From a virus, in the IMG/VR virus record IMGVR_UViG_3300021961_000819, positions 1-20,070 of that record: DNA of 20,070 bases. The stretch is one strand, 5' to 3'. The translations under genes and the position numbers were made by a program. The notes below the pieces were generated by a model. The model saw only the letters and a program-made list of their open reading frames with translations, was not told the origin of the DNA and made no database searches. Below are positions 3,336-19,824 of this stretch, one piece after another (the first letter of the stretch is position 1; each line of letters starts with the position of its first letter).

Positions 3336-3343
3336 ATAAATAG
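3336..3343 (-). promoter_or_regulatory. CTATTTAT octamer before the fibre-like gene
   Basis: The sense strand reads CTATTTAT, ending 13 bases before the ATG of the fibre-like gene, in a 37-base gap between genes. Just upstream in the sense direction is TATAATAT. The same octamer recurs before four other starts. It is the reverse complement of the T4-type late promoter core (ATAAATA plus G). Function unproven: promoter in the sense direction, promoter in the antisense direction, or an RNA element. Confidence 0.45.
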
Positions 3344-3359
3344 ATATTATACTTCGTTC

Positions 3360-4382
3360 TTACATATCTAATTTAACCACAAATGTCATATCTGTATACC
3401 TGCTCTTAGGTACAGGCTGAGATAATTTACCTATAGCAACTAATTCGTCAGAATCATTATATAAGCCTACTGTGGTTACGTATGGTTGAAAGTAGCTACT
3501 AGTTACAAAACCGTATACATCTCCTTCACTACCGCTTTGAAGAGTAGGATTATGTGTGTATAATAAATCTTGATCTCGTACTGTACATCTGTAATTGTGA
3601 GTATAAATCTCATAAGTAGATTGCCACCCAATATTATAACTGTACTGACAGTTGTTTGGAGCAGAACCTGTCACTGTTGTGCTAGATCCTGTTATATAGC
3701 TTCCAGAGATATATCCTGCTACTACATAGCTAGAAGTAGTTTGAGTTAATACTGCCGTACAGGATCCTGAAAGGCTCAATATAGAATTAATAGACCCTGT
3801 ATCTGTAATAATAGCTAGTCCATGTGGGTATATAATATCTCCAACTTTACGGCGGCTGCTGCTCTCTAAGAGTACGCCCTCTCCGTTATCGTAGATGTTG
3901 TAAACTGTTCCTCCAATATTTACAAAGTACCCGGATTGTATAAATCCACCAGAGACGTAATTAATTATAGGGACGCTATTACCTAGAAAGAAAGTTCCCG
4001 GTCTAATTGCAGATCCAAAAATATCTTGAGGGATACTTACTACAAGAGCTTGGTTACCTAAACTTCTAGAAGCACTAGGATGTAGGGTAGTTTGTTTGTA
4101 ATCTTCGTAAGAACTGCTATTAGTTGCTCCCGTAAATACACCTTCATAGTACAGGTGCTTAATTGATTCATAAACTAAGGAGCTATATTCCGAACTGCTT
4201 ACACCGGTAAGAGTCGCAACAGCAGGATCAAATAAACTTTCAGATAGTAAACTGCTGGTGTAAGTATGGTAGACTTCTATACCGTATTCCCCTAAGCTTG
4301 AACTATTTACTGTCCAGTTCTTATAGGCGGTATAGGGGTCTATATACGCATCTTGCTTGTCGAGTCTTATAAACGTACTCAT
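3360..4382 (-). CDS. Virion structural protein, paralogue A
   Basis: A 340-aa protein rich in Ser, Thr and Tyr, of unknown precise function, best placed in the outer baseplate or fibre attachment region. It is homologous over most of its length to the gene immediately upstream. Shared elements are an N-terminal short R-x-D motif, an IPQDIFGSAIRPGTF segment corresponding to IDRDRFKESLLPGSF, a segment with THNYRCTVRDQDLLYTHNP matching FAFVRVRNAEFNYSTNP, and a common C-terminus YVTTVGLYND-(x)n-KLSQP ending in V-K-L-D. The C-terminal signature is common in virion proteins of marine T4-like phages, but its role is not known. The start codon lies 4 bases after the stop of the paralogue (TAA ATGA ATG), so translation is probably coupled. 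A closer ATG (in ATGA) is out of frame. Confidence 0.65.
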   Translation of the reverse strand: MSTFIRLDKQDAYIDPYTAYKNWTVNSSSLGEYGIEVYHTYTSSLLSESLFDPAVATLTGVSSSEYSSLVYESIKHLYYEGVFTGATNSSSYEDYKQTTLHPSASRSLGNQALVVSIPQDIFGSAIRPGTFFLGNSVPIINYVSGGFIQSGYFVNIGGTVYNIYDNGEGVLLESSSRRKVGDIIYPHGLAIITDTGSINSILSLSGSCTAVLTQTTSSYVVAGYISGSYITGSSTTVTGSAPNNCQYSYNIGWQSTYEIYTHNYRCTVRDQDLLYTHNPTLQSGSEGDVYGFVTSSYFQPYVTTVGLYNDSDELVAIGKLSQPVPKSRYTDMTFVVKLDM

Positions 4383-4386
4383 TCAT

Positions 4387-5406
4387 TTAGAAATCAAGCT
4401 TGATTCTGATTAAAGCTTCTTTTGTAAAGTCTTTTAATAGAGGTCTAGATAGTTTTGCTACAGCAAGTAGCTCGTTATTATCATTATACATTCCTACAGT
4501 TGTTACGTACGCCTGTGGAGCGTTAATCATGTCTGCAATTCTTAAATCTCCAGAGCCTGTAATATAAGAAGGATTTGTGGAATAGTTAAACTCAGCATTT
4601 CTAACTCTAACAAATGCAAACTGAGAAGAGATAGTTTCTTTATAGTTTAGCTGGAAATAATCTCCGTTGTTAATTGCGTTATATAACTTTCTAAAGTTAG
4701 ACGGTGCTGGATTTGTGTTTGAAGATAGGGCTGTGCTAATATTTAATCCGCCGTTTGCTGCTGATAGGTCTAAAGCCTTGCCATTTAGTAAGATTACTCC
4801 TACATCTGGAAGGAATAAGCCATATGATCCAGAAACTGTTTGACCAGCAAACCCTGTTCCTGTATACGCAGCTCCATTAGATCCGCTCACTACTTGGTAA
4901 ACTCTACCTGCATCATTGAAGCTAACTGTGGTAGTGTCTGAGCTGTTATCTGTTAAATGTAAAGTTGTAGTAGAGTTTACTAACTTTAAGTTGAAAGATC
5001 CTGGGAGTAGGGATTCTTTAAACCTATCTCTATCTATAGAAATAGCGTAAAAATAATCAGATGTTTTGCTTCCGAATGTTAAATCCGATTCTTCATCTCC
5101 TAACACTAGTGTACGGTACTGTCCGTAGATAGTTGAAGAAGGAGATTTTCCGTCTACAGCTCCGTTATACCAGAGTGATCCAGATCCAAGCTTATGTCCG
5201 AATGCAATAGAGAACTGGGTTGCTGCTATGTCAAGTTCTGAACCTGTTTGAAATACATCTAAGTAAAATTTACCGGACGTACTATTTTCTTGAGTTGATG
5301 ATGTAAAGAATGTTGTGAGTACCGGTGCGCTAGTAGACCAAACTGGTGCTGAAACTGGTTCCGAGCTTACTACTAAGTCTTCTGTGTCAAATCTTTTAAA
5401 CGACAT
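4387..5406 (-). CDS. Virion structural protein, paralogue B
   Basis: A 339-aa protein, sister of the adjacent downstream gene. The central part (about residues 75-215) is predicted to be beta-rich and contains DYFYAISIDRDRFKESLLPG and a second block ending GLFLPDVGVILLNGKALDL. The region around residues 263-280 carries FNYSTNPSYITGSG and the C-terminus carries AYVTTVGMYNDNNELLAVAKLSRP. These signatures recur in virion proteins of T4-like phages from marine environments. The gap to the upstream 216-aa gene is only 11 bases and lacks the octamer. The bases before the ATG are AT-rich (AAACTAATATAAC). No enzymatic motif or membrane segment is visible. The position between the 1601-aa baseplate protein and the fibre-like protein suggests a connector between baseplate and fibre; this is inference. 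Confidence 0.65.
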   Translation of the reverse strand: MSFKRFDTEDLVVSSEPVSAPVWSTSAPVLTTFFTSSTQENSTSGKFYLDVFQTGSELDIAATQFSIAFGHKLGSGSLWYNGAVDGKSPSSTIYGQYRTLVLGDEESDLTFGSKTSDYFYAISIDRDRFKESLLPGSFNLKLVNSTTTLHLTDNSSDTTTVSFNDAGRVYQVVSGSNGAAYTGTGFAGQTVSGSYGLFLPDVGVILLNGKALDLSAANGGLNISTALSSNTNPAPSNFRKLYNAINNGDYFQLNYKETISSQFAFVRVRNAEFNYSTNPSYITGSGDLRIADMINAPQAYVTTVGMYNDNNELLAVAKLSRPLLKDFTKEALIRIKLDF

Positions 5407-5417
5407 GTTATATTAGT

Positions 5418-6068
5418 TTAGACTTTGTTAATTACTACCGGTACAGTTACTCTTGCTCCTGAATCTCTTCCGACAATGGTAAGAGTAGTGTAGATTACTG
5501 TATTTACTCCGAAGAGTGTATTGACTGTAGTAGCGGTAAGGTTTAAGCCTGTTCCGATTACAGTTTTTGATACATTAGTTCCTAGTGTTTGAGCTGCATT
5601 TAATCTGTTAGCTTCTTCTGTGTTGATTCCTACACCAGTAAAGACAGCTGCTACTCTTGCATCAGCAATAGTGAAGGTATATCCGTTTGTTTCAAAGGTT
5701 TGATTAGACCCTAAGTAGTTTAAAGTCTGAGGGGTAATAGCTTGAGATTGTCCTTGTTTGAGGCTTACGCTAGCGATAGTAGCTAGAATTGGAAGCCTTG
5801 CAGTACCTCTTGGAAGAGTGGTCAGTTTATACTTCATAATCTGAGTTTCATCCGGGAAAGCTTCAAGGAGAGGCATATTTTCTATAGCTTCACCGTAGAA
5901 AGCAGATCCAGATGGATGAGAAGTATTGTAGAGTGTGTAATCAATCTCGTCGTCTGCTAGAGCAAATTGAGTAATGCGGAAAGAGCCGTCACCTCTTGCT
6001 AGAAGCTCTCTTCCTTTCTTAGTAAGGATAGCGTCAACTGTGACTGTGCTATTGCTTAAATATCCCAT
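5418..6068 (-). CDS. Conserved phage virion protein, 216 aa
   Basis: This protein begins MGYLSNSTVTVDAILTKKGR and continues with LLARGDGSFRITQFALADDEIDYTLYN. That N-terminal domain (about residues 1-95) is one I recognise as recurrent in tail modules of T4-like and marine phages, without a known function. The C-terminal half (about residues 105-216) looks like a separate beta-sandwich with many Thr, Val and Asn residues ending VPVVINKV. No catalytic residues or membrane segments are seen. The gene follows the 1601-aa gene after a 42-base gap that holds the CTATTTAT octamer and an A/T-rich leader. It most probably encodes a structural component of the baseplate periphery or fibre base. Confidence 0.6.
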   Translation of the reverse strand: MGYLSNSTVTVDAILTKKGRELLARGDGSFRITQFALADDEIDYTLYNTSHPSGSAFYGEAIENMPLLEAFPDETQIMKYKLTTLPRGTARLPILATIASVSLKQGQSQAITPQTLNYLGSNQTFETNGYTFTIADARVAAVFTGVGINTEEANRLNAAQTLGTNVSKTVIGTGLNLTATTVNTLFGVNTVIYTTLTIVGRDSGARVTVPVVINKV

Positions 6069-6086
6069 GTAGCTATTATTTTAAAT

Positions 6087-6094
6087 ATAAATAG
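6087..6094 (-). promoter_or_regulatory. CTATTTAT octamer before the 216-aa virion gene
   Basis: The sense strand reads CCCTATTTATATTTAAAATAA; the octamer ends 18 bases before the ATG. This is the longest gap (42 bases) within the structural block. The extended form CTATTTATA is shared with the copy before the 112-aa gene at 17378-17716. Interpretation as for the other copies. Confidence 0.45.
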
Positions 6095-6110
6095 GGTTGT
6101 TTATGGTTTG

Positions 6111-9100
6111 TTATCCTAACAAATCTCTTCTGAGGTTTGGTAAGATTCTTTTTAATGTAGCTTGTGTAGTGTCTGTTAGAAACTCTGGTTGAAGTATTCC
6201 TCCGGATGTACTTCCTGAAGGTTTTACTCCGGATACTATAACATTCTTAGGATCATTCACAAAAGTTCTAATTAGGAATGAATCAATAGGGTTATCCCAA
6301 TCGCCTCCAAATAGATTGAAGGAGCCTGTTAAGAATGGTCTCAAAGGTGTGTCCAACTCTAATACTAAGCTTCCAGAGTTAACAAATGTACCTCCACCTT
6401 GTTTTGGGTAAAGTCCAATCTGTCCAGGTTCTTTAACTCTTACAATATTGTAAGTATATTTTTCATCGTTAAGGAATCTAATCTGATCTCCTGGTTTAAC
6501 TATGAAAGGTACCTGCACTATAGGGTAGTCGTTATCCGCAGAGCCTGTACTGTATTGTTTGCTTCCGTAAATCTCTGCTATATTTGCAGCTCTACTAAAC
6601 AGGTACTTGCTTCCGTTTTCCAAAGCAGCTCCTGCTCCTAGGGTAATCCAGGGATTAGATCCAGCAATCCAGTAGCTTCTATCCCAAGCTGTTACAGGGG
6701 TTACTGCTTGAAGTATTTCAAGTTTGCTATTTGACTTAATTTCAAAATCTCCTTCTTTAGAGAAGAACCTTACTCTGATTTTATCTCCAGATTGTAGAGG
6801 TACTGGTGCTCCTGATGTCCTGTAATAAGGTAGGGCTACAATTTGTACCAAGTTATCCGAAGAAGCTGTCTGTACTTTAAATTCGTAAGGATCTCCTACT
6901 AACCTAGGTCTAATTAAAGCTCCTGTACCAGAACCAATTAACGCTCCTGCTATTAATCCTGCTGATCCTAACACTAAGAGCACAGGTGCGCCGATTGCTG
7001 CTGCTCCAAAAAGAGCTGTTGCACTTCCTAAGAATCCAAAAGCTCCAAGAGCTGTTGCTGTGGCAGTAGTTCCGATTCCAACTAAGGCTCCGGCTCCGGC
7101 GCCTATTAAAGCACTACTTCCAGCAATACTAGGTCTTTTTAACTCTGTAGTTCCTTGTAGATCAACTATATTGTGCTGTAATTGTGACCAGCCACTTCCT
7201 GCGTTATATTCTACGATGATTTCTAAATCTTCTGTAGAATCAAAAAGGTTCTTATTATCTAAGCTGTCAAAAAGAACAGTTACGTTAAAAAATATGTCAA
7301 ATACTGAAGTAACACCAATACTATACTCTCCTGTTGTTGTGTTGTAGCTTCCGTCGGCTCCTTGGGAGACTTGCTGATCAAATAGTACTACATATCCTGT
7401 ATCGTCTTTAGTATATGTTGGTGTTTGATTAGTAGCTCTTACGTACCTACCTCTATAGTCGTTCACATTAGGGTCATCTCCAAACTGGATACTTCCTGTA
7501 GAGTTACCGCTAAAAGAACTTGAATGAGAATACACAATAGGTTCGGCTTTCTTACCGGTTTTTAATACTTTATGCTCTCCATTAACAGATGTCATATTAA
7601 ACCCTAAGTACTTAGGATTATCTAAGCTTATTTTACTTTTTCCTCCATCTTTAAAAGTTTGCTGGAGTAGTAAAAATTCTTCCGATTCCGGGAGTACATC
7701 TAGGTATGTACCTTGATCATCTACTAGGTACCTAATATCTACATCTAGATGCTCTTTTACTACTGGGCTAGCATCTGTAACTTCATTAAAGTAGGTGAAG
7801 TAGGTAGATTTATTTTCCGCTACAGGTGTCTTTCCGTAGCTCACATCTCCAGGGTAGTATAGGTTAAATTCTGTACCTCGTAATTGTTTACCCACATATC
7901 TAGAACTTATAAACCCGTTACTGTTGTACACGTACTCTTGGAGGTCTGCAGGTTGAGCAGAGCCGCTTCTTAACGCATCTATATTATGTGGGGTAAGAAC
8001 TCCGGATGAGTAATCTACCTGTTGAACTTTTGCTGAGTTTGTGGATACTACTGCATTATTTAGCAGAGCGTTATAATCGTTGTTATTAAATTTACCAGGT
8101 ATATACGGACTTACTGTAACTTGTGCGTTGCTAATAGATTGAGTTATAGGTAACAAAGCTGGGTTAGGTGAAAATCCCAAATCAGTTGTATTAGGCTGTA
8201 ATGTTATCAAAGCAATACTTCCTAAAAGCGTGGTTCCTAGTACGTAGTAGGTAGTACTACCTATTGTAATAGTGTCTACACCTTGTCTAAAAGAGTCTTC
8301 AAAATTTAAACTACCAGTAGCTGGGGAGAGTTGAATTTTAATATGGGTAGCAAAGTAGCTTCCTCCTTTGCCTTCATTCCATAAAATGGAGATGTCTCCT
8401 GCTGATAGTGGGTATCCGTATATGTAGTTATTTTCACCTACCCCAATGTAACTATAAACAGTATTATAGCTCACAACAGGATGTACAATCTCCTTAAACG
8501 GATTTTGCTCATTTAACTCTCCGGTAGTAACTGTTAATAAAGTTCCTTGAAGCTCTCCGTTGTATTTAGCTTGTTCTGTGCTTACGTAGTTATTTACAAT
8601 CCCAAGTGGGGATATGTTAGACTGAGAGTAGGCTGTAGATAGATCTCCAAATACCCCTCCATCACTTCCAACTAAGGTAGCTGTTTCAATAGAAGCAGTA
8701 TATTCTGTACGAGTTCCATCAAATCCAGGTACAGGGTATTTACTTCTCTCTAAGAGGTGCGGCTTAATAATAATACCAGAATCCGTAACAGCGCGAGCCG
8801 GTACGAAGTCTTTAATCATTTTAAAAAGCTGGTTGTCGTAAAATTTAATAAGTCTTACAAAATCGTAAATATCGTAACGTTCTAATCCGCCTACTACACT
8901 AGAAGCAACCGGTAGTAAGTCGTAGTATTTACGGCTTCTAGCATCTCTAGGGTCTCCTATGTAGTTATCTATATTATAGCTTCCTGTTATGTTGTTCTGT
9001 ATATACTCGTTTACAGCATAAGTTGGAGAAAAACCTACTTCTAGTAGATGACTATCTTGCGTGTACTTATCATCTTCTTTATAAACTGTTATATGATTAG

Positions 9101-10916
9101 ATAAAGTGTTATCTATTGGAGTATTGCTTACGTTAACTAGTCTTATCTTATCAACCGGTTCATAATCTGGTCCAAAATGTGGACCTGTCTCATTAGTTAC
9201 TAGTTCCTGTAAAGTTTGTGTTGTTAAAAATTCTTGAAGTTCTGTTAGTAGGTACTCCGGGTAACCGTCTCTATCGACACCGCCAAATTCTCTAATACGT
9301 AAAAAATTTGAAGGAATTCCAAAACAGGTAATTAAAGCTCTCAAACCTCGTTCAGTTCCTTTTGTCTTGAGAAGGTACGGAAGGTTATGATAAATTCTCT
9401 TATAAGTCTCTAGTAGTACTTCTTTGTCCGGAGTCGGTTCGTTAGAAGCAGTTACAAATGTAGTAATTTGCTCTGACCCGCTATCGTACCACTCCCCTAA
9501 CAAGAGTGAGGATAAATTAGCAACAGAAAAATTCGAAGAATATAACTTAACTCCAAAACCTTGTAATGTTTTAGCGATTAAATCTTTAGATAAGCCGTAG
9601 TTTAGTCGATTATCTCCATTGTACTTATTCGTAATATCCTTTGCATACAACCACAGTTCGTCAAAATGCTGTCCTACCATGTTGATAAACAAGGAATAGG
9701 GAGCATTAGCGTCATTCTGCCGTATAAATTCCGGGATTGTATATTCCAAACCGCTTTCGTTTAGTTCATCGTATAGGGATGCAGATGCATACTGCTCAGA
9801 ATACCATGTGTCAACAGCTATATTACTGGAAGTAGTATTTAAGTATGGACGTGTTGATGTAGTTTTTGGCCAAGTAATACTTGAGCTTTCATAATACAGG
9901 TAACGTTCATATCCATCAAATTTAGATACAACTCCCTTAATTAAATTATCGTAGTACTGATTGCTGCTATTTACTACAGTACTTGCATTTGCAATACTGC
10001 CAGCAGATTGTTTTTCAAATTCGTACTGCTGTATTAACTCTACTTTGTACTTGAAGTTAGCTAACCGCTCTTTAGCAGATGAAAAATGTACAAAATTTGC
10101 AAACTCAGTGTAATCTACGTTAATACCGATACCGGTTCCGTTTACATCGGAAAAGATTTTATTTACCGATCCTGTAACCGGATACGAAAATAATTCTGTG
10201 TAGTCAAAATACTCTGTAGAAACGGTACTTTGATCTTCTAACTCGATACTGAAGTTTGGCCCTTTAATAAAAGGTACTGTGATTTCATCTTCTACGACAG
10301 TGCTTGTAATTACATATTCGATCGGTTGAGCAATCTGTTCTTCGAAAGATACGGGGGTGTTTAGAGTTATAGTAACAGCTAATGGCTGGTCTAGCTTTAA
10401 AATAATATTACCTTCGTATAAACTAACGTTAACAACTTGCTCTAAAAGAACTCCGTTTGCTATAAGTCTGAGGTCTACTACATAAGTAGTGTTAGTTATA
10501 AGTCTTGTTAATATATCGTAGGCTTGAGTTGTAACTAATGTATTAAAAGTACTTAGTCGTACCTCTGTTCTATCTGTAGAGATTTCAGATATATAAAAAT
10601 TACCGGGGAGTGCAGTAGGACGTAAAAATTCGTACCGTACTGTCGTTGGAGTGATTTCTAACTGTTCTGTGAGAATCAACGAGTCTAATCCGTCAGATAA
10701 TGGATCAAGTTCCACGATATTCGGTTGAATAGTGGTAACGAGTATTCTGTTAGACTGACGTACTGGTATTCCAAACTCTAGTACGGTTGTACGGAGTATG
10801 TCTTGCGTATTATCTCCTTCTACATTTAGAGTAACTTTTTGCAAGATGTCTACACCTGCTCCGGCGAAATCGTATTCTGCAGGAATTCCGTTTACGTTAT
10901 ATAATACTTGCGACAT
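6111..10916 (-). CDS. Large baseplate protein (1601 aa), gp7-position, with tail-protein-I-like region
   Basis: The largest protein of the window. The ATG overlaps the preceding TAA as TAATG. Residues about 1-260 are beta-rich repeats of strand-forming Val/Thr/Ile stretches. Residues about 390-550 are helical and include NLPYLLKTKGTERGLRAL followed by CFGIPSNFLRIREFGG, the arrangement seen in P2 gpI-type and related baseplate proteins. Residues about 685-730 contain KFYDNQLFKMIKDFVPAR and IIIKPHLLERSKYP, also recurrent in tail modules. Residues about 1262-1336 are a very hydrophobic Gly/Ala-rich stretch of GAGAGALVG type with two or three possible membrane-length segments. The last ~250 residues return to beta-rich sequence. 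In T4 the gene after wedge protein 6 is gene 7 (1032 aa), so a wedge role is plausible, but homology to gp7 cannot be shown by eye. The hydrophobic insert is unusual for a baseplate protein. It could be a membrane-active segment or a glycine-zipper packing module. Confidence 0.7.
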   Translation of the reverse strand: MSQVLYNVNGIPAEYDFAGAGVDILQKVTLNVEGDNTQDILRTTVLEFGIPVRQSNRILVTTIQPNIVELDPLSDGLDSLILTEQLEITPTTVRYEFLRPTALPGNFYISEISTDRTEVRLSTFNTLVTTQAYDILTRLITNTTYVVDLRLIANGVLLEQVVNVSLYEGNIILKLDQPLAVTITLNTPVSFEEQIAQPIEYVITSTVVEDEITVPFIKGPNFSIELEDQSTVSTEYFDYTELFSYPVTGSVNKIFSDVNGTGIGINVDYTEFANFVHFSSAKERLANFKYKVELIQQYEFEKQSAGSIANASTVVNSSNQYYDNLIKGVVSKFDGYERYLYYESSSITWPKTTSTRPYLNTTSSNIAVDTWYSEQYASASLYDELNESGLEYTIPEFIRQNDANAPYSLFINMVGQHFDELWLYAKDITNKYNGDNRLNYGLSKDLIAKTLQGFGVKLYSSNFSVANLSSLLLGEWYDSGSEQITTFVTASNEPTPDKEVLLETYKRIYHNLPYLLKTKGTERGLRALITCFGIPSNFLRIREFGGVDRDGYPEYLLTELQEFLTTQTLQELVTNETGPHFGPDYEPVDKIRLVNVSNTPIDNTLSNHITVYKEDDKYTQDSHLLEVGFSPTYAVNEYIQNNITGSYNIDNYIGDPRDARSRKYYDLLPVASSVVGGLERYDIYDFVRLIKFYDNQLFKMIKDFVPARAVTDSGIIIKPHLLERSKYPVPGFDGTRTEYTASIETATLVGSDGGVFGDLSTAYSQSNISPLGIVNNYVSTEQAKYNGELQGTLLTVTTGELNEQNPFKEIVHPVVSYNTVYSYIGVGENNYIYGYPLSAGDISILWNEGKGGSYFATHIKIQLSPATGSLNFEDSFRQGVDTITIGSTTYYVLGTTLLGSIALITLQPNTTDLGFSPNPALLPITQSISNAQVTVSPYIPGKFNNNDYNALLNNAVVSTNSAKVQQVDYSSGVLTPHNIDALRSGSAQPADLQEYVYNSNGFISSRYVGKQLRGTEFNLYYPGDVSYGKTPVAENKSTYFTYFNEVTDASPVVKEHLDVDIRYLVDDQGTYLDVLPESEEFLLLQQTFKDGGKSKISLDNPKYLGFNMTSVNGEHKVLKTGKKAEPIVYSHSSSFSGNSTGSIQFGDDPNVNDYRGRYVRATNQTPTYTKDDTGYVVLFDQQVSQGADGSYNTTTGEYSIGVTSVFDIFFNVTVLFDSLDNKNLFDSTEDLEIIVEYNAGSGWSQLQHNIVDLQGTTELKRPSIAGSSALIGAGAGALVGIGTTATATALGAFGFLGSATALFGAAAIGAPVLLVLGSAGLIAGALIGSGTGALIRPRLVGDPYEFKVQTASSDNLVQIVALPYYRTSGAPVPLQSGDKIRVRFFSKEGDFEIKSNSKLEILQAVTPVTAWDRSYWIAGSNPWITLGAGAALENGSKYLFSRAANIAEIYGSKQYSTGSADNDYPIVQVPFIVKPGDQIRFLNDEKYTYNIVRVKEPGQIGLYPKQGGGTFVNSGSLVLELDTPLRPFLTGSFNLFGGDWDNPIDSFLIRTFVNDPKNVIVSGVKPSGSTSGGILQPEFLTDTTQATLKRILPNLRRDLLG

Positions 10917-11254
10917 TACTTACTTAGTTGTGCTGATAGTTCTTGTATTTCTTCGTTTGCTTGAAGAAGTCTTTGGCGTAGGTCTGCAATTTCTGCTGTT
11001 AGCGGTGCAAGAGCAGCTGAATTATCTACCTGGTATATTTTGGAGCTCTGATTTACTAGGTATTCATGTGAGTTTATACTCCCGTAAACAGGTATTTCTA
11101 GGTATAACTTGTCGTAGAGTCTAAACAACTCTTCAACCGTCTCAGTAGGTGCTTGTGTTACAGGAGGTACAAAGTACTTAAAAGAAGTATCAACTACCTG
11201 TTTGTACTCTTTCGAGTTTACTCCTTGTTTTACTAGCTCTACTCGCTCAGCCAT
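10916..11254 (-). CDS. Small baseplate-associated protein with C-terminal coiled coil
   Basis: A 112-aa protein. Residues 1-35 hold SFKYFVPP. Residues 38-70 contain TVEELFRLYDKLYLEIP followed by GSINSHEYLVNQSS, a recognisable conserved patch in small tail-module proteins of marine T4-like phages. Residues about 82-110 form a heptad-rich coiled coil (LAPLTAEIADLRQRLLQANEEI). The start overlaps the end of the upstream 381-aa gene by 8 bases, and its TAA overlaps the next ATG, so it is translated in a tight three-gene chain. No function is known. The coiled coil and position suggest an oligomeric linker of the wedge. Confidence 0.62.
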   Translation of the reverse strand: MAERVELVKQGVNSKEYKQVVDTSFKYFVPPVTQAPTETVEELFRLYDKLYLEIPVYGSINSHEYLVNQSSKIYQVDNSAALAPLTAEIADLRQRLLQANEEIQELSAQLSK

Positions 11255-12392
11255 TACGTACTACTTTAAAAATATTTGAACTATCGTAGACAGTTGTTGT
11301 ACCGTCTATTTCGCTCTTAATTAAGATACGGTAATAACGCTCTGGCTGAAGTCCGTTCATATAGATGTCAAAGTAGTTACCTGTGTTATCTGCGTTAAGC
11401 TTTGTGTAAACGTTGTCAAAATCTATAACCATCTCTTCTGTGTTTTCGTCACGAAGCCCCCAATACGCAGATTGAGGAAGTACATAGTTTGTAAGGTACG
11501 AGGATCCGGTTGTAAAAGTTCTTACAGGATATTGAGGACGTACATTCAATCTAAATCTCTGCTTACCTTCGTCTGTATACACTCCTTTGTTATTAGCAAT
11601 AGTAATAACAATGTTGTCGTTTGATACTTGATCCAATCCAGTACTCCTACTGTAATTGTCCCACTTAAATTCTAAACAGGGAGGGTAGATAGTGTGGGTA
11701 TTCGCAGAATAGTACTTTAAAAAAATATTCCTATCAGTCTGAAATTCTAAACTGCTTGTAAGTTTTAGAAGAAATCCATTGTTAGGTATTCCGTATAGAG
11801 TCTGCCCTATAGAGTGTGAGTAGTGTAGCTTCACAGACTTAGTTACGTCTATATCTAAGTCGTGAGTAGAGTTGACACTGTGAAATTGAGAGTGGTACAA
11901 ATTAATACCTCCGGATCCAGTGTACCAAGTACCTCCTACAACATCTGCACTAGCTGAGTAAGATGCGGTTGTGTTTGGTGCTAGCGGACTAGTCCAGTAT
12001 TCTGAAGGGTTTGCGTAGATCCAGTTTACTCCATCTGTTGCGTATGGAATATCTCCGAACCTACCTGTTCCTCTAGACCAGTCGTCGTATACCGGTAATG
12101 CTTCTACGGTGTACTCTACCGGTGCTTCGTTACCGTCGGCTAAATAGGCTTTTAGTGAAGCAGAAAAGTTTAAAAAGTTCTGACCTAGTGTGGCGAGTGA
12201 CGCTGAAATTTCACCCTGTATTAAGCTTTTCTGTTCTTGAGTATTAAACGCTATCAAAGTTCGAGCAACATAGCTAGTATCTCCTACGTAATAAGAGTCT
12301 ACTTCCATAATCTCATCTAATCCTGTGTTAAATAACGGATACCTGGAGTAGAGAGTAGCTGTTTTGTCTGGGAAAATTCTGTAGATCGCCAT
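11247..12392 (-). CDS. Baseplate-region protein with DNRLRE/CBM-like beta domain
   Basis: A 381-aa protein. Residues about 5-245 follow the layout of DNRLRE-type beta-sandwich modules: an opening KTATLYSRYPLFNTGLDEIMEV strand pair (aa 10-31), an ISASLATL...FSASLKAYLAD hydrophobic pair (aa 62-85), YTVEALPVYDDWSRGTG (aa 94-110) with the typical W, then DLDIDVTKSVKLHY (aa 178-191), NNGFLLKL (aa 204-211) and a final SANTHTIYPPCLEFKW (aa 229-244). Bacterial relatives are attached to surface or carbohydrate-active proteins. Residues 255-381 look like a second beta domain resembling a fibronectin fold, with NGLQPERYYRILIKSE near the end. The role is probably structural or adhesive on the virion. The start is 17 bases after gp6-like and the gap carries GTATTTAT. 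The fold assignment is by pattern only. Confidence 0.6.
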   Translation of the reverse strand: MAIYRIFPDKTATLYSRYPLFNTGLDEIMEVDSYYVGDTSYVARTLIAFNTQEQKSLIQGEISASLATLGQNFLNFSASLKAYLADGNEAPVEYTVEALPVYDDWSRGTGRFGDIPYATDGVNWIYANPSEYWTSPLAPNTTASYSASADVVGGTWYTGSGGINLYHSQFHSVNSTHDLDIDVTKSVKLHYSHSIGQTLYGIPNNGFLLKLTSSLEFQTDRNIFLKYYSANTHTIYPPCLEFKWDNYSRSTGLDQVSNDNIVITIANNKGVYTDEGKQRFRLNVRPQYPVRTFTTGSSYLTNYVLPQSAYWGLRDENTEEMVIDFDNVYTKLNADNTGNYFDIYMNGLQPERYYRILIKSEIDGTTTVYDSSNIFKVVRNG

Positions 12393-12400
12393 AGTCTATT

Positions 12401-12408
12401 ATAAATAC
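12401..12408 (-). promoter_or_regulatory. GTATTTAT octamer before the DNRLRE-like gene
   Basis: The sense strand reads AAGGTATTTATAATAGACTATG; the octamer ends 8 bases before the start. It occupies half of the 17-base gap after the gp6-like stop codon. It differs from the other four copies in having G in the first position. On the opposite strand it is TATAAATAC, a perfect match to the first nine bases of the T4 late consensus. Confidence 0.45.
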
Positions 12409-12409
12409 C

Positions 12410-14248
12410 TTAAAGAGAAGTTATGCGACCTTCAATATCTGTGTTAGGATACTTAAGTTCAAAAATACATGGATCGTAAGAAGGGTACACAACATTACTA
12501 CGTGTTGCACTTTTAATATCGTAGGCGTAAGATGTATATCCAGTTCCGTATTTGTTTGTAATTTCAATATTTTTAACTGTCTGCACTCCTTTTACCTTGT
12601 CCAGTAAAGTGTAGAGTTTAGATATATTAATGGGCTGATTTATGCTCCATTTACTGATTTGAAAATAATCTTGTAAAGCTTCTGTACATTTCACTAATAC
12701 ATCTCTTCCGGTCGCAGAAGGTCTTAGTATAATTTCATACTTAATACCAATGTTAACAATAAAGGCGTCTTTAATATTAACTGCATCGGTTAACATTCTA
12801 TACTGGGAAAGATATCTTTTTAGATTCTCTTTAAGTACCGGGGTTGCAGTCGTTAAGTTCCCTTGATTATTATAAGCTAATATGAACATCGATAAAGATA
12901 ATGGATTGCTATCTACTATATTATCAGAGGCTGATTTTACAGATCTAAGTTGATCTTGAGTTACAAATACCTTAGCTACAGATCCAAATTTAGACGGCAT
13001 TGCTAGAGCACGTACAGTATAGTCCTCTCGTGTAACTGTTCTTAGTTGCTCATTAAAAGCTCTCAAAGAGTTTTGGCGTAGCTCTTCTACTGTATCCCCG
13101 TCTTTACCTCCTGTTGCTGGGTTTGTGTTATCTACTCTAAATGTGTTTTCAAATCCTGTAGCGCTAGGAACTCGGGGAGCTCTAACCGCATTAACTACAG
13201 TTGTAATAGTATTTGCAGGTACGTTTGAACTAACTCCGCCTCCTACTAGGTACCTAATTGTTAAAGTAGTATTTACGGGAGATACTCCGTATGCTCCAGT
13301 AAACATAAAGTTAGAAGGATCGTATGCTTTGTCAATCTTGGAAATACCAATAGTCTGATCTCCTAAACCTACGTTGGTCGGATCAGGTGTAATTAAAGTA
13401 TCATCTTGTCCATCCTGACCTGCTCCGAATTGAACCTGTAGTACTCCGTTTGAAGTAAATCTAGTAACAAATCGGCGAGGTGTTTTTTGAAGTTGTAACA
13501 AATATGGAGCGTCATTACGGTCCGGACCTGTGTTTACAACTTCTTGAAAGACTGTATCTTGAGCAAGATAAGGAACTTCGGTCCAAGTATTATTATTACT
13601 ATCTACAATGTCCAATACTCCTAAAATATCCGTATCGGCTATAGTTAAAGTTCTAAATCTTTCAAAAGTATCAATCGTTACGTTGATTGTTCTAATTTCT
13701 GCTGAAATTGCTTCTGCTTGTTTCTTAAGAAGGAAAATACTTGGATTACCTAATAAAGTCTCTAAGACTGTTACTTCTGTGGGATCATATGAACTTGAAT
13801 AGCTAAAATCGATTTTATCCTGTATTAGGAACTGAGCTATTGGGTTTGTATTACTCTGAACTACTGCGTTATTATCAACTGTAAGCGCATAATCGTAGTT
13901 GGGTACGTATTCTGTTCCAGACAGTATGGCAGGTACTTGTTGGTATATATCTAATGTAACAGAAGCTGCAGTACTTAACTTGGGACGGTATCCCATCATA
14001 TAAGCTAAACTGTATAGATTTCCTGGCTCTTGAGCGTATTGGAGAAAGGTTTCCTGTAGCTGTATATCTTGGTAAAAGGATAAAACATCTCCTACATAAG
14101 ATGCCATCTCCATAAACATAACTCCAGGAGATGTTGGGGAGAAATCATTGTAAGTATCTGGAAAGTAGTTTTTTGCGTAATCGATTAACTGTTGCCTGAA
14201 ATCAGCAAATGTTTTATCTGAATACTGTATTTCTCGCTGCTGGGCCAT
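12410..14248 (-). CDS. 6: Baseplate wedge protein gp6-like (J-like family)
   Basis: A 612-aa homologue of T4 baseplate wedge protein gp6 (660 aa), which with gp25 and gp53 forms the inner ring that clamps the hub and starts sheath contraction. The N-terminus carries YSDKTFADFRQQLIDYAKNYFP, then NDFSPTSPGVMFMEMASYVGD and SFYQDIQLQETFL (aa 34-70), the characteristic opening of this group. Around residues 375-425, GGKDGDTVEELRQNSLRAF followed by TREDYTVRALAMPSKFGSVAKVFV matches the conserved core of the gpJ/gp6 baseplate family. The C-terminal ~110 residues include VNIGIKYEIILRPSATGRDV and the helical segment after it, as in gpJ-like proteins. Its ATG overlaps the stop of gp25-like as TAATG, the same order (25 then 6) as in T4. 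Evidence is good; the exact domain boundaries are approximate. Confidence 0.88.
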   Translation of the reverse strand: MAQQREIQYSDKTFADFRQQLIDYAKNYFPDTYNDFSPTSPGVMFMEMASYVGDVLSFYQDIQLQETFLQYAQEPGNLYSLAYMMGYRPKLSTAASVTLDIYQQVPAILSGTEYVPNYDYALTVDNNAVVQSNTNPIAQFLIQDKIDFSYSSSYDPTEVTVLETLLGNPSIFLLKKQAEAISAEIRTINVTIDTFERFRTLTIADTDILGVLDIVDSNNNTWTEVPYLAQDTVFQEVVNTGPDRNDAPYLLQLQKTPRRFVTRFTSNGVLQVQFGAGQDGQDDTLITPDPTNVGLGDQTIGISKIDKAYDPSNFMFTGAYGVSPVNTTLTIRYLVGGGVSSNVPANTITTVVNAVRAPRVPSATGFENTFRVDNTNPATGGKDGDTVEELRQNSLRAFNEQLRTVTREDYTVRALAMPSKFGSVAKVFVTQDQLRSVKSASDNIVDSNPLSLSMFILAYNNQGNLTTATPVLKENLKRYLSQYRMLTDAVNIKDAFIVNIGIKYEIILRPSATGRDVLVKCTEALQDYFQISKWSINQPINISKLYTLLDKVKGVQTVKNIEITNKYGTGYTSYAYDIKSATRSNVVYPSYDPCIFELKYPNTDIEGRITSL

Positions 14249-14658
14249 TATTGTTCAAAGTTTATTGAGATTTCATCTACTATATTAGTCTGTGTAACAG
14301 TGTAGTCGAGTTTAAAATTTATGAGATTACTATCCGGGGTGCTTTTTAAAGTAAGCTGTTTAATTACAACTTGTGGAAAATATAATCTTAAGTCTGCTTC
14401 TATATTAAGTTTTGCTTCCTCTAACGTTACGTCGTTTATACCTTCGAATAAAAAGTTTCTAATACCGGATCCAAAATCTACATTCAGTACTCTTTCATTT
14501 TTTCCAGTTAGAAAAAAATTCAGCAAATTACTCCTTACTGCATCCTTAGTGGTATACGTTGAATTAAATACCGCAGATCCTTGAAAAGGTATAGCAACAC
14601 CTACAGCTTTTCTAGGCTGTAAATCTAACGGATTAATTCTTTGTACCTTATAAGCCAT
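14248..14658 (-). CDS. 25: Baseplate wedge protein gp25-like
   Basis: A 136-aa protein in the size range of T4 gp25 (132 aa). It is a lysozyme-fold-like (GPW/gp25 family) wedge subunit that nucleates sheath polymerisation and binds gp6. The middle holds the family signature: FLTGKNERVLNVDFGSGIRNFLFEG (aa 49-73), including the E55-R56 pair where other members have an EPR-type motif and the DFGSG turn. Then follow two helices, NDVTLEEAKLNIEADLRLYFP (aa 75-95), and the terminal strands ending NFKLDYTVTQ...ISINFE. The N-terminal 45 residues have the usual extended basic start. Its ATG is inside the last codons of the 137-aa gene (11-base overlap), and its TAA overlaps the gp6-like start. This tight order is what is expected of the baseplate operon. 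Confidence 0.88.
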   Translation of the reverse strand: MAYKVQRINPLDLQPRKAVGVAIPFQGSAVFNSTYTTKDAVRSNLLNFFLTGKNERVLNVDFGSGIRNFLFEGINDVTLEEAKLNIEADLRLYFPQVVIKQLTLKSTPDSNLINFKLDYTVTQTNIVDEISINFEQ

Positions 14659-15061
14659 GTTTCTTCTTATCTGCTAAATTTACAATTGCAGAGGCTTTAT
14701 TAACAAAGCTTAGTTGAGAGATATCTATTCCTGCTTTAGGTGCTGCTGCTACTGCCTGTGCTACCGCTCTTGGATCATCAGAAACCGGCTTATGTGATTG
14801 TTTAGGCATGAAAGCGCTTCTGTCAAACATCTGAGCCATATTAGACGTAGCTGTTCCCATACTACGGTAGTCTTCTGAAGTCATAGATCGACTGGTCATG
14901 TTTAGAGCTTCCATGAGTGGGTTACGGCCTGTAAATTGTACCGGTTCTGATTTTGATACGGGCGGCTGGGGAGGAGTGTCTTTTTTTGCTTCAGAGAGCT
15001 CTTCTCTAATAGCTTCTCTTACAGCTTCTTTGATCAAAGTTTTAAATTCAATAGCTTTCAT
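14648..15061 (-). CDS. Small virion-module protein, 137 aa
   Basis: A hydrophilic 137-aa protein of unknown function. Residues 1-26 form an amphipathic helix with alternating Lys, Arg and Glu (IKEAVREAIREELSEAKK), followed by a Pro/Ser/Lys-rich linker (aa 27-45), an NPLMEALNMTSRSMTSEDYRS patch (aa 47-67), and an Ala/Val-rich C-terminal third ending LADKKKHGL. Such short helical proteins next to gp25 and gp5 occur in other phages of this type and may act as linkers or assembly factors. The start is the ATG at 15061, only 4 bases after a CTATTTAT octamer, in a 14-base gap. It overlaps the gp25-like gene by 11 bases. No enzymatic motif is present. Confidence 0.55.
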   Translation of the reverse strand: MKAIEFKTLIKEAVREAIREELSEAKKDTPPQPPVSKSEPVQFTGRNPLMEALNMTSRSMTSEDYRSMGTATSNMAQMFDRSAFMPKQSHKPVSDDPRAVAQAVAAAPKAGIDISQLSFVNKASAIVNLADKKKHGL

Positions 15062-15065
15062 AATA

Positions 15066-15073
15066 ATAAATAG
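15066..15073 (-). promoter_or_regulatory. CTATTTAT octamer before the 137-aa gene
   Basis: The sense strand reads AATCTATTTATTATTATG: the octamer ends only 4 bases before the ATG and no alternative start is nearby (the next Met is about residue 50). A promoter -10 at this site in the sense direction would begin transcription at or inside the start codon, so this copy argues against a simple sense promoter. Confidence 0.45.
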
Positions 15074-15075
15074 AT

Positions 15076-16269
15076 TTAACCCAGTTGGTTGTCAATTCTA
15101 AATTTAAGTTCATCAATAAGTATTTGAGTATCTGCACTAAAAGAAGGTACACCTTCTAAAACAACTATACCTTGCCTATCTAAAGCAACTGCGTACCTAC
15201 GGGGTGCAAGCTGAGATTCCCCAATGACTGTTCTTATCTCGAATCTAAATCCGCGGTAAGTAGTTCCTTCTCCAGCTGTAAAAGATCTAGGGATTAATCT
15301 TGAAGTTATTTCAGGAGTAAGAGCGTTATCAGGGAGGCAAGTTAAGAGTAGCTGTTCAATAACCTGTACTAGTGCATAAACAACATCTAAAGTGGTATCT
15401 ATGTACGTTACCGATTTACTAGCAGAGCATAGTCTATCGTCTAAGGCTGCTACCCTTTCTTCGTACCTTGAAACGATTTTATCTAGTAAACGATTAGCAT
15501 TAATAAGAGGAGGGGTAGCAGCGATTCCGACTCCGGAAGCAGTTGCTGCTAATATAGCCGCATCGTTAGTCTTTACTGTAATTTTTAAAGACTGTAAAGA
15601 TATATTTAACGCATTAACTATAGCAGATGCAACATTAATTGCTTGCTTGAACTGTTCAAAAACTCTAGTAAATGTATTTAGAAATACTATTACGTTTTGC
15701 ACAATTTTAATTAACCTTTCTACTACTTCTTCGGGAGGACATTTTAACCTGTCCAAAATAAAAGTTGTTATTGCGTCTCTTACAAGTACTTCTACTTCAC
15801 TAACTCCTTGCTGTAGCAGAGCCTCCTCAACTTCTGAGGCTTGTTGAGGTAGTAGTACTGGTGGTCTTCCTCCTCGGTCTCTAATATAAGCTCCTGTGTT
15901 GTTAGGAAAATTTATTCCAACTAAAGGACTTGTCCAGCTTATAATCTCTTGAAAGTCTTTATCAGTTAGTGCTGCAGCACCTTCTTTTAAGTAACGTAGT
16001 ATGTGCGGAGGAAAGCCTTTTTTGGAGAGTATATATTCTATAGCGACTATAGACTGTGTCTGAGTTAGTCTCTTAAAAAATTCCTCGTCTAAATCTGTAC
16101 AGGGGTTAAAGTTTTCAAATCCATATTGAGAAAAAATCTCAGAAGCTTGTGTACACAGCTTAGCTCTAACTTCTACTACACGCTCAATAGCAGCCACAGT
16201 TAGTACCTGTATAAGATCTCGGCCATCACAAGGCTGTATCTGCTGAAACTGTTCGGTTAGTGTTGGCAT
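15076..16269 (-). CDS. Baseplate/tail protein, 397 aa, helical core and conserved C-terminal domain
   Basis: A 397-aa protein between the gp5-like spike and gp25-like genes. Residues 1-115 are mostly helical with Cys14, Cys39 and Cys57. Residues 140-310 are a long run of amphipathic helices, including LIKIVQNVIVFLNTFTRVFEQF (aa 186-207). A Gly/Ala stretch AAILAATASGVGIAATPP (aa 237-254) occurs in the middle. The last 60 residues form a separate beta-type domain, YRGFRFEIRTV followed by RRYAVALDRQGIVVLEGVPSFS and ILIDELKFRID. I recognise that kind of C-terminus from other large tail-module proteins of T4-like marine phages, but cannot name a function. The start lies 2 bases after the spike stop. 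By position it could be a hub, tail-tube initiator or inner wedge component. Confidence 0.6.
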   Translation of the reverse strand: MPTLTEQFQQIQPCDGRDLIQVLTVAAIERVVEVRAKLCTQASEIFSQYGFENFNPCTDLDEEFFKRLTQTQSIVAIEYILSKKGFPPHILRYLKEGAAALTDKDFQEIISWTSPLVGINFPNNTGAYIRDRGGRPPVLLPQQASEVEEALLQQGVSEVEVLVRDAITTFILDRLKCPPEEVVERLIKIVQNVIVFLNTFTRVFEQFKQAINVASAIVNALNISLQSLKITVKTNDAAILAATASGVGIAATPPLINANRLLDKIVSRYEERVAALDDRLCSASKSVTYIDTTLDVVYALVQVIEQLLLTCLPDNALTPEITSRLIPRSFTAGEGTTYRGFRFEIRTVIGESQLAPRRYAVALDRQGIVVLEGVPSFSADTQILIDELKFRIDNQLG

Positions 16270-16271
16270 AG

Positions 16272-17378
16272 TTAGGTTAAAAATACTTTTTTGGATAGTA
16301 ACCTTTCTCTCATACTGGTAGAGCTAGTTTTTAACCAGGTTGCTAATTCTGTAGCTCTTCGTATACCATCTGCGTTATTTGTAACAGATGCTAATATTAC
16401 CAAGAAGTCTGAAACGTTTGAAAGATAATCATACGTGGTTAATAGCTCTTCTATTAGTTCATCTCCTCTAACAGCGGATTGCTGAAGTGTCGGGTTTAAA
16501 GATTCTCCGGTCAGTCTTACTGTAGGAGCTTCTATGTTTACGGTAACGGTAGCATCGAGGTGTACTTCTTCTCCAAGTAGGCCTACATTTCTTTTTGCAG
16601 ATAGTAAAATACTCTCCTCACTGGCGTTAAAATAAAGTCGACCACTGTTTATTAAAACTTGCTTACCTGTATACTCTTTGGCAGCTGCAGGAACTTTACC
16701 TAGTGCATAACTAGTACTCTGAGGTCTCTTCCATTCATAAGGTGCTTCTAGAGGAATAGTATGATTACTAGCTAAGTAAATAGAAGCCGGATCTAAATTA
16801 ACATCTTCAATTATATAAGAACTACCTTCTGAGGTATTTACTTGTCCGTTTGCAATTATTAAGACTGGTTGGCTTGCAGAAGGAGAAGTCCAGGGTGTAG
16901 TCGAGAAGTTTTCGGAAAATCTAATACTTTGACCAGTTCTTCCTTCTAATATAATGTCTCCAGGAAAGGGTTCAAGCGGGTTAACATCCACTTTCTCGTA
17001 GAATTCAGGAGCTAGTTTAGGTGGTGATCCTGCATCTGATGTGGCTCCGTGCTGGGGATGGTTCCATATATTAACAGGCGGTAGGTAGTAATCTAAACTA
17101 GTTAAATTCCCTGAGCTTTCGGCGCCTGGACCTTTAACAATCTGTACAAATTCTCCAGCTAAAGGCACGGTAGATAGGTAGCTGAGCGCAGGAAAAGCAT
17201 AAACTACTTTACCACTCTTGCTATCTGCACATCGTATTTGATTTACACTTAGTGTACTATCAGTGTAATGGTTATCTAATACTTTAGCAAATTTTAAACC
17301 AGTTCCTGGGTTATATTTACGTGAATCTTTTCTAGATTTCGTATTTCCAGTTAAACTGAGGTTTCTAAAATCAGCCAT
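16272..17378 (-). CDS. Central baseplate spike, gp5-like, without lysozyme domain
   Basis: A 368-aa protein with the layout of a contractile-tail spike. Residues about 28-112 form an OB-fold-like domain: LKFAKVLDNHY, then VVYAFPALSYLSTVPLAGEFVQIVKGPG (aa 58-85) and YYLPPVNIWNHPQHGA (aa 97-112). Residues 140-153, GDIILEGRTGQSIRF, are a signature I associate with gp5-like proteins of marine T4-like phages. Residues about 238-292 show the repeated short-strand rhythm of a beta-helix (VLINSGRLYFNASEESILLS and following). Residues 304-360 are helical. T4 gp5 (575 aa) has a lysozyme domain between the OB-fold and the beta-helix; nothing like it is visible here. Its ATG overlaps the upstream stop as TAATG. 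The spike is expected to be trimeric at the tail tip and to puncture the outer membrane. Confidence 0.72.
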   Translation of the reverse strand: MADFRNLSLTGNTKSRKDSRKYNPGTGLKFAKVLDNHYTDSTLSVNQIRCADSKSGKVVYAFPALSYLSTVPLAGEFVQIVKGPGAESSGNLTSLDYYLPPVNIWNHPQHGATSDAGSPPKLAPEFYEKVDVNPLEPFPGDIILEGRTGQSIRFSENFSTTPWTSPSASQPVLIIANGQVNTSEGSSYIIEDVNLDPASIYLASNHTIPLEAPYEWKRPQSTSYALGKVPAAAKEYTGKQVLINSGRLYFNASEESILLSAKRNVGLLGEEVHLDATVTVNIEAPTVRLTGESLNPTLQQSAVRGDELIEELLTTYDYLSNVSDFLVILASVTNNADGIRRATELATWLKTSSTSMRERLLSKKVFLT

Positions 17379-17716
17379 TACTTCTGCTCTACTATTGCAT
17401 TAGCTTGTTCTAGAATCTGAGCTAGTTCTTCTGCTCCTAATTCAAATCCTGCTGTATCGCCGGATGTCTTAGCGTTATCCATCCTCTGGACGATTGTAAG
17501 CATCTTAACCAGCATTTCATCGTTTCTAACTCCAATCTCTAGGTAGTTAGCGATCATAGGTACTACTAAGGTAGCGTCTCCAATATTTTCAATAAGAGGC
17601 TTGAGTTCCCCAATGAGAGCATTGATCTGTTTATCTTTTTTCTTAGAGTTGTTATATATCTCCTCTAGAACGTTAGAAACAGTTTTTCCGTTAAATAGCT
17701 CCTTGTCTAGTGCCAT
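17378..17716 (-). CDS. Conserved small phage protein, 112 aa, upstream of spike
   Basis: A 112-aa acidic helical protein. Residues 1-45 contain LFNGKTVSNVLEEIYNNSKKKDKQINALIGELKP; residues 45-75 contain GDATLVVPMIANYLEIGVRND; the remainder is helical and ends EQANAIVEQK. I recognise this type of sequence from T4-like phages of aquatic bacteria, where it lies near the late sigma factor and baseplate genes. No function is established. It has no membrane segment and no catalytic motif. A CTATTTAT octamer precedes the ATG by 11 bases, so it would be the first gene of the baseplate block, and a purine-rich AAAGAAAGAG is the only hint of a Shine-Dalgarno. Its stop overlaps the gp5-like start. Confidence 0.6.
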   Translation of the reverse strand: MALDKELFNGKTVSNVLEEIYNNSKKKDKQINALIGELKPLIENIGDATLVVPMIANYLEIGVRNDEMLVKMLTIVQRMDNAKTSGDTAGFELGAEELAQILEQANAIVEQK

Positions 17717-17727
17717 ACTCTTTCTTT

Positions 17728-17735
17728 ATAAATAG
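17728..17735 (-). promoter_or_regulatory. CTATTTAT octamer at the head of the baseplate block
   Basis: The sense strand reads TTTCTATTTATAAAGAAAGAG, with the octamer ending 11 bases before the start of the 112-aa gene. It stands in the 24-base gap immediately downstream of the late sigma factor gene, i.e. at the junction between the regulatory block and the structural block. Confidence 0.5.
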
Positions 17736-17740
17736 AAAGG

Positions 17741-18442
17741 TTAGTTTTTTAAGTCCACCATACCTTCTTGCTCTAAGGCAGTATATAGAGTGTAGAACTC
17801 TTCCTTGAGTATGTTTATGACCTTTGTTAAGTATGGAGTCTCAGTACCGGTCATTTCCCGTATGTAGATGTATAACGCTTTCTTTTTAAAAATATCTAAA
17901 TCGTAACGCTTTTCAAATAACGTAAGAACGGCATCAGCTACCTTTCGGTCAGCTTCCTTAGGGAACAGCGCTTCTAACTTACTATATGTACGTTCGACGT
18001 AAATATCTACGATTTGACGCAAGGTTAAAGCGTTTGGATGTACATAATTAACTTCAAGCTCATACGTTCCATTAAAGTCTTCAACAGGAGCTAGTGATTT
18101 TAAACGCTTATAGTTCTTGTTATTGTAGTTAATCAAATGCCTCTTTACAATTGTCCCGAAGTATGAGTAAGCTTTTGCACCCCTAGTAGGATCAAACATA
18201 TGAATCTTCTCCTCCACTAATAGGGAAATGACCTCGTGTTTTAAATCTTCGAGGTCATCTACATCGGTGTAGTAAAATCTAAAGGTGTGAATGATGTTTT
18301 CTACGAGTTTGTAGAAAGGGTAGTATATTTCATCCGTAAAAATCTTCTGTCTGAAGGCTGTATCGGTTGAATTGTTATATGCTACTATTGCATTCTCTGT
18401 ATCTTGCGTGAAATAATTTGTATTACTCTTCTTTCTCCCCAT
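17741..18442 (-). CDS. 55: Late-transcription sigma factor, gp55-like
   Basis: A 233-aa protein with a sigma-70 region-2-like core. Residues about 15-55 are helical and lead to YYPFYKLVENIIHTFRFYY (aa 40-58), followed by the acidic DVDDLEDLKHEVISLLVEE (aa 60-78). Then comes HMFDPTRGAKAYSYFGTIVKRHLIN (aa 81-105), which matches the conserved helix of gp55 and sigma region 2 that binds RNA polymerase and melts the -10 DNA. Residues 106-120 are basic (NYNNKNYKRLKSL). The C-terminal ~90 residues are helical. T4 gp55 (185 aa) directs host RNA polymerase to the late promoter TATAAATA with the sliding clamp and gp33. Neither partner is in this window. It precedes the baseplate genes by 24 bases, a sensible place for the factor that would switch them on. 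Confidence 0.85.
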   Translation of the reverse strand: MGRKKSNTNYFTQDTENAIVAYNNSTDTAFRQKIFTDEIYYPFYKLVENIIHTFRFYYTDVDDLEDLKHEVISLLVEEKIHMFDPTRGAKAYSYFGTIVKRHLINYNNKNYKRLKSLAPVEDFNGTYELEVNYVHPNALTLRQIVDIYVERTYSKLEALFPKEADRKVADAVLTLFEKRYDLDIFKKKALYIYIREMTGTETPYLTKVINILKEEFYTLYTALEQEGMVDLKN

Positions 18443-19641: not shown

Positions 19642-19647
19642 AAGTAC

Positions 19648-19661
19648 TTAATAATTATTAA
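19648..19661. repeat. 14-bp palindrome TTAATAATTATTAA
   Basis: Perfect dyad, overlapping an 8-bp palindrome AAGTACTT at 19642-19649 that touches the start codon of the 60-aa gene. It could be an operator or simply AT-rich leader sequence. Confidence 0.45.
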
Positions 19662-19666
19662 TCTTT

Positions 19667-19696
19667 ATATATAATATATTAATATTAATTATATAT
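19667..19696. repeat. AT-only 9-bp inverted repeat
   Basis: ATATATAAT (19667-19675) and ATTATATAT (19688-19696) are perfect inverted repeats with a 12-base spacer, itself containing TTAATATTAA. No G or C occurs in the whole 30 bases. The stem is weak as RNA, so a DNA function (easy melting, protein binding) is as likely as an mRNA hairpin. Confidence 0.45.
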
Positions 19697-19734
19697 TCTT
19701 TTTACTCTCCCCTTTTTCTCCCTCCCCTTCGTTT

Positions 19735-19765
19735 CAAATATACGAACTAGATCAATACGAAACAA
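19735..19765 (-). promoter_or_regulatory. Bacteroidota-type primary sigma promoter
   Basis: The sense strand has TTG (19765-19763), a 20-base spacer, then TATATTTG (19742-19735). This fits the published consensus of Bacteroidota primary-sigma promoters, TTG-N17-23-TAnnTTTG. The transcript would start around 19728-19731 and carry a leader of about 88 bases before the 60-aa gene. It would drive the operon of coiled-coil protein, HD protein, membrane protein and sigma factor. No competing promoter of this type was seen in the other gaps. Confidence 0.6.
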
Positions 19766-19774
19766 CTGTTTGAT

Positions 19775-19806
19775 AAAAAAGTTTCCCACACGCGCCGCGC
19801 CGCGCG
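19775..19806 (-). terminator. Possible weak terminator after the GIY-YIG gene
   Basis: In the sense direction CGCGC (19806-19802), a 6-base loop and GCGCG (19795-19791) form a 5-bp GC stem; ten bases later there is a run of six T (19780-19775). The T-run is further from the stem than in a normal intrinsic terminator, so this is tentative. Its place between a gene end and a promoter makes sense. Confidence 0.3.
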
Positions 19807-19824
19807 AAAAGTCGCCACGCAAAT

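Follow-up and report, generated by a model that had tools for sequence, protein, structure and literature searches.

The late promoters of T4-like phages are reported to be nearly invariant, following (N)ATAAATA in T4, KVP40 and marine cyanophages. A 20,070-nt stretch of viral DNA (IMG/VR record IMGVR_UViG_3300021961_000819, positions 1 to 20,070; hereafter the window) raises the question of what an octamer with the core TATTTAT does on the sense strand ahead of its tail genes. The preliminary description of this DNA offered three readings: the phage sigma factor recognises another, nearly mirror-image motif on the sense strand, antisense late transcripts start in the gaps between genes, or the element works in RNA.

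A scan of the window bore out the layout first reported. The minus (sense) strand carries (C/G)TATTTAT 4–18 bases before five ATGs, occupying five of the six gaps of at least 14 bases (14, 17, 19, 24, 37 and 42) between consecutive genes from 17740 to 493 (Table 1); the gap at 493-511 lacks it. TATTTAT does not occur on the plus strand of the window, and beyond the five boxes plus-strand ATAAATA occurs only at 123-129, as had also been stated. Raw counts in the window are not above chance, with six TATTTAT compared to 8.2 expected and five STATTTAT compared to 3.9 expected. Placement and strand are non-random, whereas the count is ordinary for the base composition: all five octamers fall inside gaps, which cover 0.76% of the window, and across 20,000 shuffles of the sequences of the six gaps the mean was 0.02 octamer-bearing gaps and the number never exceeded two.

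Table 1. Putative promoter elements and the genes assigned to them in the window
Feature	Position	Strand	Remarks
Putative late-promoter box CTATTTAT	17728..17735	-	11 bases before the 112-aa gene (ATG at 17716), directly after the sigma gene
Putative late-promoter box CTATTTAT	15066..15073	-	4 bases before the ATG at 15061 (137-aa gene); leaderless mRNA predicted, with +1 at the A of this ATG
Putative late-promoter box, variant GTATTTAT	12401..12408	-	8 bases before the 381-aa tail gene (ATG at 12392)
Putative late-promoter box CTATTTAT	6087..6094	-	18 bases before the 216-aa tail gene (ATG at 6068)
Putative late-promoter box CTATTTAT	3336..3343	-	13 bases before the 936-aa tail fibre/spike-like gene (ATG at 3322)
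112-aa gene	17378..17716	-	First gene of the operon assigned to the box at 17728
137-aa gene	14648..15061	-	Box 4 bases upstream; predicted leaderless
381-aa tail gene	11247..12392	-	First in the operon assigned to the box at 12401; 1601-aa gene next
216-aa tail gene	5418..6068	-	First in the operon assigned to the box at 6087
936-aa tail fibre/spike-like gene	512..3322	-	Assigned to the box at 3336
Host-type (Bacteroidota sigma-A) promoter TTG-20-TATATTTG	19735..19765	-	Upstream of the 60-aa/HD/89-aa/sigma operon
Phage sigma factor, 233 aa	17741..18442	-	Predicted sigma region 2 fold at residues ~6-115; own C-terminal helical domain; proposed reader of the box

The window covers 20 kb of a phage that is a relative of immuto, a Flavobacterium phage, and includes baseplate genes (gp25 and gp6-like). 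Immuto is the closest annotated relative, with 58% identity in the gp6-like protein, 61% in the sigma factor, and a matching gene order around 77-101 kb; many environmental contigs are nearer to the window than immuto. Microcystis phage Mel-JY01, which has a cyanobacterial host, is a distant relative (gp6-like protein 43% and sigma 35% identical). The position of the sigma gene next to the tail genes is conserved in this phage group.

Counts by strand and comparisons with shuffled gaps, which the preliminary description had proposed, found the box enriched and almost one-stranded in relatives; neither of the refuting outcomes named there, absent enrichment or random orientation, was seen. Forward-to-reverse counts of CTATTTAT in related records are 28:1 (a 173-kb record), 14:1, 1:20, 1:15, and 8:0, favouring the gene strand, and further related records gave 20:1, 0:13, 10:1, and 0:12. 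A control word with the letters reversed has zero to three copies in the records with ratios of 28:1 to 8:0. Sense copies of CTATTTAT are intergenic in 17 of 20 cases in immuto and 24 of 28 in the related genome G001, with gaps amounting to ~6% of the genome. Across five related genomes, 8–20 gaps bear CTATTTAT, compared to 0.2–0.6 when the gaps are dinucleotide-shuffled. TATTTAT is present in 36 of 85 gaps in the nearest relatives (3.6 expected; antisense 0) and in 56 of 119 gaps in more distant ones (5.3 expected). The box of the 112-aa gene is also found in relatives (G001, at 123237), and homologues of the 216-aa tail gene are preceded by a box in immuto (ATATTTAT) and Mel-JY01. Mel-JY01 has the same box, mostly 33–40 bases before late genes and with a Shine-Dalgarno sequence between box and start; a minus-strand gene in this genome has its box on the minus strand. 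The gaps of two unrelated Bacteroidota phages contain no TATTTAT box, and a 41-kb stretch of jumbo phage LR756508 (sigma 41% identical) yielded no clear motif. The CTATTTAT signal is common to a large uncharacterised phage group with hosts in two bacterial phyla.

The word ATAAATA is identical in forward and backward order, which makes its complement and its reverse complement one and the same, and the core alone cannot show the direction of reading. The motif had been called nearly mirror-image, a likeness that for this reason carries no direction; the flanks do. CTATTTATA and TATAAATAG are exact reverse complements, and the strand opposite CTATTTATA carries the exact T4 consensus TATAAATA. 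This would suit antisense late promoters, at which the sigma would recognise a T4-type (T)ATAAATA opposite the genes and send antisense RNA into the upstream gene. Flank statistics, taken from copies whose ATG is 14 or more bases away, point the other way. The fifth base downstream of the box is a purine in 95% of C-copies (n = 75) and 80% of A-copies (n = 95). The first six downstream bases are rich in A+T, at 71–97% for C-copies, with no such rise upstream; the antisense side, where an antisense transcript would start, has no comparable purine peak and no A+T-rich stretch. Gaps with both a predicted intrinsic terminator and a box have the terminator first in 36 cases and the box first in 4, so that the box follows a sense terminator in 36 of 40. 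Distance to the sense ATG has a floor, being at least 4 bases in all but one or two copies, with 38–39 copies at exactly 4. In all relatives tested, the T4 core TATAAAT occurs on the sense strand about as often as chance predicts, so an antisense role for the box would leave the virion genes without a late promoter, and the few opposite-strand genes that carry the box bear it on their own strand. A test of position in gaps of at least 40 bases was uninformative, the box being no nearer to the start codon ahead of it than to the stop codon behind it (32/81, P = 0.07). Purine, A+T content, terminator order and ATG floor together favour a sense promoter, and antisense late promoters are very unlikely.

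Read in the sense direction, the box would direct transcription to start at the purine about five bases after it, which would place the box at -12 to -5. Spacing between box and ATG ranges from 4 to 60 bases, and where it is exactly 4, a +1 at base +5 falls on the A of the ATG and predicts a leaderless mRNA. For the 137-aa gene, this short spacing had earlier been taken to argue against a simple sense promoter, an objection that a +1 at that A would answer. Spacings of exactly 4 bases recur in several families of genes, above all among the homologues of the 137-aa gene, which have the box at this distance in immuto and in dozens of relatives (most of those seen). The transcript of the 137-aa gene is a candidate conserved leaderless mRNA of phages, and genes 4 bases from a box would be translated without a leader. 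Leaderless transcripts account for 5.5% of mapped mRNAs in Flavobacterium psychrophilum (PMC9723704). The spacing in Mel-JY01, with its Shine-Dalgarno sequence, fits a start just after the box.

Two promoter classes were distinguished in the relatives. The first, AGTTG[CG] followed after ~18 bases by TTC.TA(TA or TC)TTTAG, is the Bacteroidota -33/-7 pattern and is concentrated in hypothetical-gene clusters adjoining the sigma operon. The second is CTATTTAT(A) without a -33 element, and no conserved block was found upstream of CTATTTAT in the relatives. De novo motif searches in immuto and the related genome G002 first gave host-type/TTCGTAT motifs, after which the classes were separated. The late block of immuto has the box in 19 of 27 gaps (the other 8 lack it) and the host-type motif in none, compared to 3 and 21, respectively, of the 33 gaps in its early cluster (Fisher 1.6e-6 for the box and 5e-8 for the host-type motif). 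GTTG stands at -33 before 24 of 27 host-type boxes in immuto and 18 of 20 in G001, and before 0 of 17 and 0 of 24 copies of CTATTTAT in the same genomes; per genome, 0–1 of 11–24 CTATTTAT copies have it. Genes preceded by the box include portal, terminase, sheath, tube, tape measure, and hub. The sigma operon of the window has a host-type promoter that its closest relatives share (in L111 the element lies 1322 bases ahead of the sigma gene), and the first CTATTTAT follows right after the sigma gene.

These two classes bear on whether the box is instead a modified host sigma-A promoter (TAnnTTTG), at which host RNA polymerase would act with no phage sigma involved. The letters are related, the inferred position equals that of the -7 box of F. 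psychrophilum (PMC9723704), and copies of ATATTTAT after TTCGT resemble TAnnTTT. However, the Bacteroidota sigma-A promoter (-33 TTG, -7 TAnnTTTG) serves the early genes here, the late box has neither the -33 element nor the TAnnTTTG letters, and the gene sets are separate. The box is missing from the gaps of the two unrelated Bacteroidota phages and shared with a cyanobacterial phage, and the F. psychrophilum elements described in the text of PMC9723704 (TAnnTTTG, TAnnTTGY, CGT box, and sigma-54) do not match it. We consider a host sigma-A variant highly improbable. An RNA element that serves for processing or ribosome loading along one long late transcript is extremely unlikely: the motif lies near start codons and Bacteroidota lack Shine-Dalgarno sequences (PMC6847099), but its spacing is variable, the 33–40 bases and intervening Shine-Dalgarno sequence of Mel-JY01 speak against ribosome loading, terminators separate the upstream gene from the motif, and overlapping genes do not have it. 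Among the three readings first offered, a sigma that reads a different sense motif is supported, and the other two are disfavoured.

The best reading of the box is an altered T4-type late promoter, not a member of the class with the T4 consensus. T4 was run as a control through the same procedure, which placed sense TATAAATA 14–28 bases ahead of many late-gene starts; in the phages studied here, TATTTAT is enriched on the sense strand instead of that consensus. In T4, gp55 reads the late promoter together with gp33 and the gp45 clamp (PMC2988020). As in T4, there is a single A+T box about one helical turn upstream of the inferred +1 and no -35 element, an A+T-rich melting region lies downstream, virion and other late genes follow, and the phage encodes a small sigma (PMC2988020). 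Unlike T4, the core is TATTTAT rather than ATAAATA (the complement at every position) with C or A as the 5' base, the inferred position is -12 to -5 rather than -13 to -6, and many boxes lie only 4–19 bases from the ATG, with leaderless starts predicted. The closest published variant in the review is that of Aeh1, with a/gC at -13/-12 (PMC2988020). The marine T4-like cyanophages S-PM2 and Syn9 (NATAAATA) similarly have the single-box late promoters of T4-like myoviruses (PMC2984593); they keep the T4 core, whereas Mel-JY01, also a cyanophage, has the TATTTAT core. A search of open-licence papers found no description of a TATTTAT-type phage late promoter.

A box that is common to phages of two host phyla and absent from unrelated Bacteroidota phages indicates a phage-encoded reader, and we infer that the 233-aa sigma is this reader. 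T4 gp55 is shorter (185 aa) and has its clamp-binding tail at the end. The window sigma matches Pfam Sigma70_r2 below the cut-off (E = 0.002). Its AF2 model (pLDDT 75) gave almost only sigma factors in the top rows of VIA-align, the best being 1or7 (Z 9.1, 105 residues, 3.5 A); Foldseek alone found no significant match for either sigma model (E-values >1). Comparison to a T4 gp55 profile was collinear over 99 columns and weak (P = 0.035, probability 1.5%), there was no match in PHROGs, and phmmer against the PDB returned nothing significant. The C-terminal ~100 residues (17741-18049, minus strand) form a confidently modelled helical domain (pLDDT 84) that had no clear match in the PDB (VIA-align Z ≤4.4). 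A gp45-type clamp (PF02916, detected in T4 with E = 2.9e-35) was not found in immuto, Mel-JY01, G001, or G015, where a diverged clamp is possible.

The motif recurs on the gene strand, before late genes and with promoter-like flanks, and it is conserved across phages of two host phyla. Judged on these sequence patterns, CTATTTAT, with its variants ATATTTAT and GTATTTAT, is very probably a sense late-promoter box read by the phage sigma. The host-type promoter would first transcribe the operon that includes this sigma, which would then direct RNA polymerase to the CTATTTAT boxes before each virion operon without a -33 contact. RNA would start at the purine about five bases past the box, leaving genes 4 bases away leaderless and the others with short leaders. 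More tentatively, these phages may form a T4-like clade, with Bacteroidota and cyanobacterial hosts, in which sigma specificity switched from ATAAATA to the complement TATTTAT, the C-terminal domain may replace activation by gp33 and the gp45 clamp, and late mRNAs are leaderless; we hold this wider scenario to be possible but doubtful. A different late box in a large environmental clade allows operon annotation and start-site prediction, and the predicted leaderless late mRNAs come with a usable late-promoter model for Flavobacterium phages. The matched series of sigmas, which are 52–92% identical, offers material for how a region-2 sigma changes its box.

Several further features were observed in the window and its relatives. 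The long gap at 19642-19824 (minus strand) opens with the very G+C-rich TTTCGCGCGGCGCGGCGCG and has a T run shortly after, in a window of 38% G+C; this stretch is probably the terminator of the upstream gene. A GIY-YIG-like protein is encoded after the last tail gene (40-492, minus strand) without a box of its own. It belongs to PHROG 447, is called 'NAD synthetase' in records, and has homing-endonuclease matches. Immuto (L086, 18607-37015) is annotated with a 7-deazaguanine DNA modification set comprising QueC, QueD, QueE, FolE, DpdA, and QueF. One site in L097 (~118-160; G001 140117-140154) holds CTATTTAT, a host-type TATCTTTAG, and an inverted ATAAATAG within 40 bases before a single gene, and is a possible dual early/late promoter or hairpin.
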